Virus record (IMG/VR): IMGVR_UViG_3300031801_000010
Location: 1 to 29,975 of that record
Source of the DNA: a virus
Direction: 5' to 3' (one strand)
Length of the DNA: 29,975 bases
The notes below the pieces were generated by a model. The model was not told the origin of the DNA. It made no database searches and worked only from the letters and a program-made list of their open reading frames with translations. This document shows positions 4,050 to 25,002 of the stretch, in pieces; positions within the stretch are counted from its first letter, which is position 1; each line of letters starts with the position of its first letter. A program made the translations under genes and the position numbers.

Positions 4050-4754
4050 CTATTTGTATCGGTTTATACTTAACTTTTTTCTATAATGTTGTTTAACAAA
4101 CATAGATTGATGAATAAATTGTGTCACTTTATTATCTATACTTCTATGATCTCCAGTTTCAACTTTCATTTTAAATTCTTCACGTTTGAAAGGAATGATC
4201 TGAGCCACAGGCATTCCATAGGGAAATAATATTTCTTCATTCAATGGAGCAGTAAACCACGTATTGATATGGGCATCGTGATAAATATCCGTATCAATAA
4301 TCCCACTTAATACTGTCAAGTTAGGGTGTTTATTGTAATGTGGTGCAGTAATATAACAACTGTATCCAGGAGGAGTTTTAATGTACCAAGGATTAGTAAA
4401 TTTAAATGATCCCTTAAATGTTTCTGGTGGAAAAGGATAACTGTCGATTTGAGCTTGTGGATGTATATTAGCAGTAAAATCACCTCTATTATGAGGAGGC
4501 GTTGCCCAACCAATACCTTCTGGACTGTCTTTAGATACAGGAACTCGTACCACCATATAATCTGACCATAATGGAATAATATAGCCATAGCTGAGAGCAT
4601 CAAGTATTCCAGGACAACTTTTTACAGTTAGTTTTTCTTCTTGTTCTGGACCTTTTTGTTTTTTAAACCATCCTGGCCAAAAATCCCTTGCTGATACAGG
4701 AGGATTTGCAAGTTTAAGTTCTTCAATGTCTGTAAAAAATGTTACTTCAGTCAT
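4050..4754 (-). CDS. Unknown protein, paralogue of the 3031-3789 gene
   Basis: I choose the ATG at 4754 (MTEVTFF...), which overlaps the gp61 stop as ATGA; a second ATG 12 nt upstream is less likely. The product is 234 aa. Recognisable parts are DFWPGWFKKQ, KSCPGILDALSYGYIIPLW, a Pro/Tyr-rich middle (NPWYIKTPPGYSCYITAP), a segment with two His (YHDAHINTWFT) and FPYGMPVAQIIPFKREEF. The pattern 'G.p.aqiiPF+RE' with an upstream small beta domain resembles a phage/bacterial DUF family I cannot name with certainty. No signal peptide or membrane span. The function is unknown. Translation is coupled to gp61. Confidence 0.75.
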   Translation of the reverse strand: MTEVTFFTDIEELKLANPPVSARDFWPGWFKKQKGPEQEEKLTVKSCPGILDALSYGYIIPLWSDYMVVRVPVSKDSPEGIGWATPPHNRGDFTANIHPQAQIDSYPFPPETFKGSFKFTNPWYIKTPPGYSCYITAPHYNKHPNLTVLSGIIDTDIYHDAHINTWFTAPLNEEILFPYGMPVAQIIPFKREEFKMKVETGDHRSIDNKVTQFIHQSMFVKQHYRKKLSINRYK

Positions 4755-5785
4755 ATGCGTTTCCATTTATTTAATGCTACTTTTGCCTGTAAGCCCTTAA
4801 ATGTCCTAGACTTAATTGAATCGTGTAGCTCTTCACTACTCATACCCGAAAGAATCATATCATTTATATCCTTCTGTCGAATTCTCTCATCCCAGATACA
4901 TACTGCATAGCCCTTTTTAATAAATGTCTCGATTTTATTAACTATTTCTTTATTTCTGTTTTCGTTATCCATTACGATAACAAATTCTGTCTCACTATTT
5001 AGATTACAAGAACTGGATAGATCCGAGCCTGCCATTGCAATTGCGTTGTCCAGAAACAAAGAATCAATCGGTCCCTCGACAACATATACTGGTTTAGATT
5101 CATCCATCTTGTCTAAGCCAAATAGTTTACACTCATCCTCTGTTACTTTAATAGTTATATAACGTACTGTATTGTTTGGATCCAATGAACGGCCCTGAAA
5201 TGCCATCATCTCTCCCTTCTTATCAAAAAATGGTATAATAAGACGACCTTCGTCTTTCTCTATGTCTTTAAATTTATTCTTAACAATCGTATTAGTCCAC
5301 GCTTTAAAAGTTTCTGTATAGTACAATCTCGACATTTGACGTAGGGGTATTTTTCTCTCGTGAATATATAATCTTGCTGGATGATTAATATCACACAAGT
5401 CCAAGCAAGTAATATGTTTGAGAGGATTAGAAGAGAATGTAGGAGTTTTGTTTGTCTTGAAGAAATTAGATTGGTCACCTGCGCCAAGTTTTATTTTCTT
5501 GCCTTGTCTGCCGCGTGCCCCAAATTTTTCAAGAGTATACTCTTTTTTTAGAGATGGTGCCACGTGTTCGATTAATTGCGATAGTCCAGTTGCTACGCCA
5601 CAGTTGTGACATTTATACAACGCATCACCTTTATTCTCAAAGATGTATCCACGGGCTTTTAGTTTGTCTTTGGCTGAATCGCCACATAGCGGGCATCTAA
5701 AATTCCAAAGGGCTTTACCCTTTTTTTTGAATTGTTCTAGTCGAACACCAAGAATTCCGATGTATTTTGAGTCAATATAATCCAT
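4751..5785 (-). CDS. 61: DNA primase (T4 gp61-like)
   Basis: A 344-aa protein, essentially the T4 gp61 length. It has an N-terminal zinc-binding domain with C31, C34, C59 and C62 (RCPLCGDSAKDK... YKCHNCG), then a primase core, then a TOPRIM domain with VYVVEGPID (E237, D241) and VIVMDNENRN (D273, E275). It makes RNA primers for lagging-strand synthesis in complex with the gp41 helicase, which is also encoded here. The N-terminus MDYIDSKYIGILGVRLEQF matches the family start, so the ATG at 5785 is firm. It is the first gene after a consensus sigma70 promoter, with an expected leader of only about 2 nt. Confidence 0.95.
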   Translation of the reverse strand: MDYIDSKYIGILGVRLEQFKKKGKALWNFRCPLCGDSAKDKLKARGYIFENKGDALYKCHNCGVATGLSQLIEHVAPSLKKEYTLEKFGARGRQGKKIKLGAGDQSNFFKTNKTPTFSSNPLKHITCLDLCDINHPARLYIHERKIPLRQMSRLYYTETFKAWTNTIVKNKFKDIEKDEGRLIIPFFDKKGEMMAFQGRSLDPNNTVRYITIKVTEDECKLFGLDKMDESKPVYVVEGPIDSLFLDNAIAMAGSDLSSSCNLNSETEFVIVMDNENRNKEIVNKIETFIKKGYAVCIWDERIRQKDINDMILSGMSSEELHDSIKSRTFKGLQAKVALNKWKRI

Positions 5786-23575: not shown

Positions 23576-23731
23576 TTAATCCCATAAATCTTTGTCCCAA
23601 TCCTTATTGAAATGTTCATCATAATGTTTTTTCTTAGTTTTCTTCGACTTCTTCCCAACATTATCCCTAGCAGTCATACGTTGATGTGATGGGAGTCTTT
23701 CAAGGATACTAAGTTTATCTAATATGCTCAT
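23576..23731 (-). CDS. Small basic protein (51 aa)
   Basis: A 51-aa frame from the ATG at 23731: MSILDKLSILERLPSHQRMT, then a Lys cluster (GKKSKKTKKKHYDEHF) and an acidic/aromatic end (NKDWDKDLWD). The charge pattern is that of a small nucleic-acid or protein-binding polypeptide. No clear Shine-Dalgarno. It lies directly 3' of the structured RNA, so its translation could depend on the RNA's end. Family unknown. Confidence 0.55.
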   Translation of the reverse strand: MSILDKLSILERLPSHQRMTARDNVGKKSKKTKKKHYDEHFNKDWDKDLWD

Positions 23732-23760
23732 TGGTTTAACTTATTAAAGGTTCATAATAA

Positions 23761-23988
23761 AAGAGAGTAATTGGGTAGAGCTTAGACTATCCCGAAAGAC
23801 GGCTCTTGCGTGGGCACTCTCGCCCCGATTAGCAAGCCAGCTATCTACTCCCTCACCCGATGGCACGTTACCGCTGGTCCTATTGGAGGGGCTTCTTAAC
23901 TTCATCTAAGTAGGGTCACTTACTCGCACTCAGGTAAAAGTCCGTCTCTTTTCCCTGGCTTTAGTGTCGTTTACCCAACTACTCTCTT
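23761..23988 (-). ncRNA. Candidate structured RNA, ~228 nt, with closing helix and pseudoknot
   Basis: Arms at 23972-23988 and 23761-23777 pair in one 17-bp helix; the only non-Watson-Crick pair is G-U on the minus strand and would be A-C on the plus strand, so the RNA is on the minus strand. Inside: AAGCCAG (23955-23961) pairs with CTGGCTT (23834-23840), and AGAGACGG (23942-23949) pairs with CCGTCTTT (23795-23802). These two helices interleave (a-b-a'-b'), a pseudoknot. Local hairpins: TAAGT/ACTTA (23907-23922), CCCTC/GAGGG (23850-23890), CTTGC/GCAAG (23805-23836) enclosing GGGC/GCCC. The closing helix is followed by TTTTATT. The DNA is noticeably richer in G+C than its surroundings. I could not match it to tRNA, tmRNA, RNase P or group I intron consensus. 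Confidence 0.7.
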
Positions 23989-24004: not shown

Positions 24005-24616
24005 TTAGTATACCCAACAAACATAAGAATATCTAAATCCTTTTGTTAGTGGAGTAACTTGATGTGGATAGATAAAACTTGAAGGAAATATTAATACATT
24101 TCCTTTCTTTGCGTCTATTTTTTTATCCTCACATAGAATTAAATCGCCTCCTTCATAATCATTATTCAGGAAACCTATAATAGTAAGAAAGGATACTCCT
24201 GTCGTTTCCGGAAACGAATGACTAACATTATCCCAATGTGCCATCATTCCTTGTCCTAAGGAATATCGATTAAATTTTATTTCACTATATCCTGTCCAGC
24301 CACCAAGCCAATTAAATTTAAAAGAAGAGCAGTATTCCATTAAAACTTCTGGAATACTTTGCATCATTTCGGATGTAATACTTTTAATTTCACGCTGAAG
24401 AAACATATTGTTTAGATTATTAAAATCAAGCAATTCTGATTCTTTCGGTATATCACTTAATGGTATATCAGCTTGCTGTTCCTCTGGCTTTATCGGGTAA
24501 CGAAGCCAAGGCTTTATCCAAGAAGCCTTACTCAATATATCTATACTATAATCACAAAAATCTTCTCCCAAAAAATTCTCTTTGAGAAAAATATAATCTT
24601 CAATATTTTTATTCAC
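24005..24616 (-). CDS. 2-oxoglutarate/Fe(II)-dependent oxygenase
   Basis: A 203-aa protein with H127-x-D129 in MMAHWDNVSHSF, H185 in YPHQVTPL and R195 in GFRYSYVCW, giving the full iron and 2-oxoglutarate site; YEGGDLILCED is the typical jelly-roll turn. Substrate unknown; related phage enzymes modify protein or nucleic acid. Starts with GTG overlapping the IscU stop (GTGA). It is the second enzyme of this class in the window but shares little sequence with that at 21791-22408. The structured RNA follows 16 nt beyond its stop. Confidence 0.85.
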   Translation of the reverse strand: MNKNIEDYIFLKENFLGEDFCDYSIDILSKASWIKPWLRYPIKPEEQQADIPLSDIPKESELLDFNNLNNMFLQREIKSITSEMMQSIPEVLMEYCSSFKFNWLGGWTGYSEIKFNRYSLGQGMMAHWDNVSHSFPETTGVSFLTIIGFLNNDYEGGDLILCEDKKIDAKKGNVLIFPSSFIYPHQVTPLTKGFRYSYVCWVY

Positions 24617-25002
24617 CCTGTAATTCTGTTTTTGTTCCTATAATCTGCGATTGCTGATTTAATAGCATCTTCCGCCAATACAGAGCAATGAATTTTGACA
24701 GGGGGAAGAGAAAGTTCTTCCACGATGTCAACATTTTGAATTGTATTTGCTTCCGAAATAGATTTACCCTTGACCCATTCAGTCGCCAGAGAAGAAGATG
24801 CAATCGCAGATCCGCAACCGAACGTTTTAAATTTGGCGTCAATAATATTTTCATTTTCATCTACCTTTATTTGTAGTTTCATAACATCACCACATTCTGG
24901 AGCACCCACAAGACCAGTACCGACAGACTTATCCCCACTATCCAGACTACCAATATTTCTAGGTTTTTCAAAATGCTCCAATACTTTATCTGAATATGCC
25001 AT
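24613..25002 (-). CDS. iscU: Fe-S cluster assembly scaffold IscU
   Basis: A 129-aa protein, nearly full-length bacterial IscU (E. coli 128). It keeps the cluster ligands C37, D39, C63, H105 and C106, at the same numbering as E. coli IscU, and the LPPVK motif (99-103) recognised by the HscA chaperone. It should therefore accept sulfur from the host IscS and hand clusters to host chaperones. A viral copy probably maintains Fe-S assembly during infection. It starts at a TAATG overlap with the repeat/EF-hand-loop gene, inside the clamp-loader/RegA operon and not with other isc genes. Confidence 0.93.
   Translation of the reverse strand: MAYSDKVLEHFEKPRNIGSLDSGDKSVGTGLVGAPECGDVMKLQIKVDENENIIDAKFKTFGCGSAIASSSLATEWVKGKSISEANTIQNVDIVEELSLPPVKIHCSVLAEDAIKSAIADYRNKNRITG

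Follow-up and report, generated by a model that had tools for sequence, protein, structure and literature searches.

A family of structured RNAs in marine T4-like phages with covarying helices and a loop-loop contact

To our knowledge, few structured RNAs of phages have been described, and we know of no established function for the tRNA-island RNAs among them, namely GOLLD, ROOL and the T4 RNAs RNAC and RNAD. The phi29 pRNA is a phage RNA with paired ends, a three-way junction and two arms whose loops are complementary, and in both the purine riboswitch and the hammerhead ribozyme a three-way junction is organised by two hairpin loops in contact. GOLLD and ROOL are phage or prophage RNAs found near tRNA islands, and they carry conserved intermolecular kissing loops (PMC12286853). 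RNAC and RNAD are small stable RNAs of unknown function (PMC9697503), and Melnitz-like marine phages encode a tmRNA (PMC9004378).

The DNA analysed here is a 29,975-base virus record, called the window at its full length. It comes from a T4-like phage: its family-B DNA polymerase, gp43, is about 49% identical to cyanophage enzymes, and the gp44 clamp loader and gp45 clamp are also encoded. A 228-nt interval at 23761-23988 stands out by its G+C content (0.50, against 0.32 in the flanks and 0.36 in the whole window), as an earlier sequence-only reading had remarked. On the minus strand it lies between a 2OG-Fe(II) oxygenase gene (24005-24616, Pfam PF13640), whose stop codon is 16 nt upstream, and a 51-aa open reading frame (23576-23731), both outside the element itself. 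An IscU/NifU-type iron-sulphur scaffold gene with 429 relatives in viral contigs adjoins the oxygenase gene at 24613-25002.

That reading had taken the interval for an unassigned structured RNA with a pseudoknot, and had found no motifs of RNase P, tmRNA or group I introns. The Rfam 15 covariance models, which include RNase P, tmRNA, group I and II introns, GOLLD, ROOL, HEARO and riboswitches, likewise gave no match in the window at their gathering scores; with permissive filters, the Infernal search that it had proposed returned a single chance-level, snoRNA-like match (E 4.7). Folding energies of the single sequence stand out only mildly (z = -2.3 for the minus strand, -3.3 for the plus strand) and do not pick the strand. 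Since neither Rfam nor folding energy was decisive, the claim of a structured RNA needed homologues. These were found, their helices covary, and together with the lack of an Rfam match they support the proposal.

Homologues and two classes

Scanning IMG/VR with the neighbouring proteins yielded syntenic loci, where blastn located it with 69-90% identity, and the family was enlarged by motif scans and a first covariance model, R1. In total, 41 distinct copies were collected from IMG/VR phage contigs: 28 belong to class 1 and 13 to class 2, a diverged group. Class 1 has long forms, most of them of 210-230 nt, and short forms without one insert hairpin, which measure about 168 nt. The window copy is a long form of class 1, which R1 matches over 23761-23988 of the minus strand with 233 bits (cmsearch, E 8.7e-54), a score to be read knowing that the window sequence is itself part of the alignment behind the model.

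Class 2 first came to light in L139, as a weak R1 match (38 bits, E 7e-7) some 30 nt past a class 1 copy; the two stand in tandem there, at 4729-4896 and 4928-5131. The classes have junction strands and helices in common and differ in the letters of those helices. Contig L130 also carries one copy of each, the class 2 copy being cut off at the contig end; thus one of each class can co-occur. An R1 search of eight larger records, including ones of 124 and 177 kb, returned one match in each, and six related records gave none. No clean empty site emerged from a comparison of loci, and the closest 2OG oxygenase orthologues all carry the RNA.

Among cultured phages, blastn queries from class 1 (three copies) and class 2 (one copy) found no homologue, the class 2 query matching only through its flanking tRNA. 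Model R2 likewise had no match in T4, HTVC008M, C48C1 or three single-cell marine viruses. The carriers are T4-like phages known here only from metagenomes. A pattern scan of bacterial and archaeal genome contigs gave 18 matches, none convincing by model (L157, at E 0.86, is at chance level). A generic junction pattern intended for a third class retrieved only L315 and L316, and the model rejected both. As far as these searches show, the family is new relative to Rfam 15, the phage records searched and the literature, and it may figure as an unnamed entry in a large-scale prediction list.

A three-way junction and a contact between two loops

Covariation indicates that the minus strand of 23761-23988 encodes a structured non-coding RNA, a conclusion that largely holds. 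Across 26 homologues, 97.4% of helix cells pair when the helices are read as minus-strand RNA and 88.8% when they are read as plus-strand RNA, in agreement with the strand proposed earlier. The same helices contain 88 G-U cells and 5 A-C cells, an excess that shows selection acting on an RNA strand, and they combine compensatory changes with this tolerance of G-U. The sole open reading frame over the element, of 53 aa at 23744-23905 on the minus strand, is crossed by single-base indels in relatives, so the sequence-only view that no protein is encoded stands. A pattern search for this frame in the homologues found no match, and the argument about the frame rests on the indels in alignment A1.

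RNAalifold, applied to a plain MAFFT alignment of the 26 class 1 copies and making no use of our hand-built structure, recovered P1, P2, P3 and part of P4 unaided. With the full model, 94.4% of cells in these copies are paired and 18 pairs show two-sided changes. None of 500 shuffles, which ignore the relatedness of the copies, reached either figure, and slid controls, which preserve it, paired in 24-46% of cells. When both classes are combined, 92.7% of cells are paired and the number of two-sided pairs rises to 26. This covariation, drawn from sets of 26-31 sequences, strongly supports a predicted architecture in which a three-way junction connects P1, the P2 arm and a long arm composed of P3, P4, P5 and P6. 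The strands that join them (AAAYGACA, GUG-CUCUAC, GAARUUUAAG and GCUCU) are near-invariant.

All of the following features lie on the minus strand. P1, the 17-bp closing helix, is formed by 23972-23988 (5' strand) and 23761-23777 (3' strand), with two-sided changes in 8 of 9 tested pairs; it contains a single G-U pair and, like the several hairpins, had been seen correctly from the window alone. The nearly invariant AAAYGACA belongs to junction strand J1/2 (23964-23973), whose first A pairs in P1 and whose final CAC starts P2. The P2 arm (23917-23966) comprises a CAC/GUG base, a CAGG/CCUG segment, an upper stem that covaries within and between classes, and a 7-nt loop of the form RG-NNN-GA. 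P3 joins CUUAGAU (23904-23910) to GUCUAAG (23781-23787), and 5 of its 7 pairs show two-sided changes; its covariation extends over CCUAG/CUAGG, CUUAG/CUAAG and GCUAG/CUAGC, with CUCUGG/CCAGAG in class 2.

The 5' strand of P4, CCCCUCC (23885-23891), pairs with an inner 3' strand at 23849-23851 and with an outer one, GGG at 23791-23793, which follows the optional insert hairpin (23794-23848) missing from the short forms. P4 covaries as well: CCC/GGG alternates with CUC/GAG (in L025 and L032), short class 1 forms have CCUAUCC/GGAUAGG, and class 2 has GUUAUG/CAUAAC. P5 (23876-23878 with 23856-23858) leads to the P6 hairpin GGUAACGUGCC at 23862-23872, where GG/CC becomes GC/GC in L023. In three class 2 loci (L272, L277 and L279), an outer helix, GUGGG/CCCAC, extends the closing stem upstream of the RNA, and an extra hairpin on the 5' side (GUUCUG..CAGAAC) may create a further junction.

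A scan of all column pairs found, besides the nested helices, one crossing helix with a compensatory change at every pair: the P2 loop with the P6 loop. In the window copy, ACG at 23943-23945 pairs with CGU at 23865-23867. This combination is the one found throughout class 1, and class 2 pairs GUA or GCA with UGC or UAC. Because the triplets are invariant in the 26 class 1 sequences, the contact could be tested only once class 2 had been added. Standard pairs then occupy 93 of 93 cells in 31 sequences, and pairing falls to 0% when the contact is slid by one position. Compensatory changes occur at all three pairs, two of them separating the two classes only and the middle one also varying within class 2; the changes from class to class could represent few historical events. 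The frame around the triplets is kept, as RG-NNN-GA and, in most copies, UA-NNN-G. Contact within one molecule or between two would fit the covariation equally well.

These results revise the topology first proposed, in which long-range helices were interleaved. P1 and P3, the long-range helices with covariation, are nested, and the one covarying pseudoknot is the 3-bp kissing contact between P2 and P6. The likeness to ribozymes drawn from interleaved P2/P4-like helices is therefore not sustained, as the column-pair scan supports nested P1 and P3 with one loop-loop contact and no covarying crossed long-range helices of the RNase P or ribozyme type. Two other crossings were rejected. ACUA with UAGU has no compensatory change to support it and is broken in L025, a copy whose P3 is intact; pairing of the P2 loop with CCGUC in the insert has no support in the column-pair scan, and the short forms are without the insert.

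Genomic context and possible roles

Small doubtful open reading frames aside, the RNA is always co-directional with its immediate neighbours, and in nearly all copies the start of the analysed core is close to the upstream stop codon, anywhere from about 19 nt ahead of it to 40 nt past it. The neighbours themselves vary (named by Pfam for the window and by inspection at other loci): 2OG oxygenase, methyltransferase-like, SET-domain-like and small proteins upstream; nuclease, glycosyltransferase-like and glutaredoxin-like genes or tRNAs downstream. The earlier placement of the element in a replication region is accurate for the window genome and does not extend to the family; because copies adjoin genes for tRNAs and for glycosyltransferase-like, methyltransferase-like and SET-domain-like proteins, among others, the association with replication genes is incidental.

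A tRNA gene lies within about 20 nt downstream of 10 of 37 copies, compared with 6 of the 482 gene stops counted at these loci, an enrichment that overstates independent events because the tRNA-adjacent copies are partly related by descent. The tRNAs are tRNA-Asp, -Tyr, -Asn or -Gly, five of them also called by Rfam. Either class can precede the same tRNA-Asp (class 1 does so in L140, class 2 in L310), and a tRNA-Tyr likewise comes after a class 1 copy in L136 and a class 2 copy in L313; the L278 copy directly follows an apparent tRNA end. No tRNA gene stands beside the window copy. In L309 (3070-3164) and L314 (7665-7759), the tRNA-Tyr gene immediately downstream of the RNA draws a weak R2 match of 21 bits, probably by chance.

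Five related copies have a perfect TTGACA-17-TATAAT, the consensus sigma-70 promoter, just upstream of the core. Over all copies, promoter enrichment is weak outside this one lineage, and most, the window copy included, have no convincing promoter or terminator; a terminator search of the window found none. In L308, a TATAAATA box matching the T4 late-promoter consensus precedes the class 2 RNA, some 20 nt from its closing helix. A very basic 48-aa peptide (..KRTSIGKSKNSRPKNKHKRKGWKKYRGQG..) recurs downstream of both classes (L022, L037, L032 and L277) and is a possible nucleic-acid-binding partner. In L138, L144, L149, L139 and L133, upstream and downstream gene modules are reshuffled independently on each flank, as if the RNA were a recombination joint between them.

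We favour, with a probability of roughly 60%, the interpretation that the element is a gene for a stable, trans-acting RNA of marine T4-like phages and that it founds a new family of structured RNAs, in which classes 1 and 2 are two interchangeable subfamilies. This assignment of function draws on conservation and placement: the three-way junction, its joining strands and the tertiary contact are kept while neighbours and insert have changed, placement is of the tRNA type (10 of 37 copies precede tRNAs), copy number is low, with one full match per record, and five copies have a sigma-70 promoter. The RNA would be part of its neighbours' transcripts or, in one lineage, start from a sigma-70 promoter of its own, and would be released by processing like the adjoining tRNAs. 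It would then persist as a stable molecule acting in trans, presenting its pre-organised junction to a phage or host protein or to the translation machinery during infection.

Two points count against this interpretation: the lack of a convincing promoter or terminator at most copies, and the position of most copies between co-directional genes, beginning at a stop codon or no more than 40 nt from one, as could a cis-acting element of the mRNA, whether a riboswitch-like aptamer, a 3'-end stabiliser or an operon insulator for neighbouring genes. Riboswitches have been reported in marine phages (PMC9004378), and a three-way junction with docked loops resembles the purine-riboswitch architecture and could hold a ligand. 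However, genes differ on both sides of the RNA, neither class is tied to one gene family, and the same tRNA follows either class; there is neither the consistent downstream gene class nor the expression platform of a riboswitch, given downstream features that differ widely, tRNAs included, and a window without a terminator. We therefore consider a cis-acting role possible but unlikely. Near-invariant junction strands organised by a loop-loop contact, as in hammerhead-type ribozymes, together with copies directly before tRNA 5' ends, might instead suggest a self-cleaving or otherwise catalytic RNA with a candidate activity in trimming operon or tRNA transcripts. This seems improbable for an RNA that matches no Rfam ribozyme, RNase P or intron model, has no conserved sequence adjoining P1 outside the element and, at about 168-230 nt, is large for a self-cleaver.

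The complementary loops might also kiss between molecules, making the RNA an oligomer-forming scaffold comparable to phi29 pRNA rings or ROOL and GOLLD cages, in which each class (ACG/CGU versus GUA/UGC or UAC) would assemble only with itself. The loop triplets do differ between classes with complementarity kept, and the classes co-occur in L139 and L130. Even so, the contact amounts to just three base pairs, loops touching within one molecule would account for the covariation just as well, and we know of no RNA requirement in T4-type packaging. ROOL and GOLLD offer a precedent, lying near tRNA islands and having conserved intermolecular kissing loops (PMC12286853); self-assembly into a ring or cage nevertheless appears doubtful here. 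The varied positions and the high-G+C island would agree with a selfish element, either mobile or intron-like, or with a structure at the DNA level, for example an origin or a cruciform, but one full match per record, the lack of an intron model match, the intergenic location of copies and the 88 to 5 ratio of G-U to A-C cells, which shows selection on an RNA strand, make this reading very improbable.

Relation to described RNAs

Phage-encoded structured RNAs of tRNA islands, such as GOLLD, ROOL and T4 RNAC and RNAD, are an already known kind; what is new is this family, which is compact and single-domain and has helices backed by covariation, a tertiary contact that also covaries, and a core that hardly varies. 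Its small size makes it tractable for cryo-EM, crystallography or NMR and for biochemistry, and it offers a way into why phages keep non-tRNA structured RNAs beside tRNA genes. If the loops did join separate molecules, it would be a compact counterpart of ROOL, GOLLD or pRNA in T4-like ocean phages.

Compared with described RNAs, the marine RNA shares with phage tmRNA its nature as a structured RNA of marine phages and differs in having no tRNA-like domain or tag, neither ARAGORN nor the Rfam models giving a match. It resembles the purine riboswitch and the hammerhead ribozyme in its three-way junction with loop-loop contact, but no Rfam match, expression platform or known catalytic core was found in it. 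With phi29 pRNA it has in common the paired ends, the three-way junction and two complementary arm loops; it differs in the lack of an Rfam match, in coming from a T4-type phage and in an intermolecular pairing that is only hypothetical.

RNAC and RNAD are also small RNAs of a T4-type phage, located inside its tRNA cluster. Homology to them was rejected, as the best score in the T4 tRNA region was 7.7 bits with filters off and R2 found none in the whole T4 genome; RNAC has, by eye, a T-arm-like sequence not seen in the marine RNA. The likeness to GOLLD and ROOL lies in being phage-encoded, structured, often near tRNA islands (here 10 of 37 copies are next to tRNA genes, the window copy not among them) and equipped with kissing loops. 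GOLLD and ROOL, however, are several hundred nucleotides long and have their own Rfam models, which do not match here, whereas the marine RNA is 168-230 nt in length and is predicted to fold around one three-way junction.
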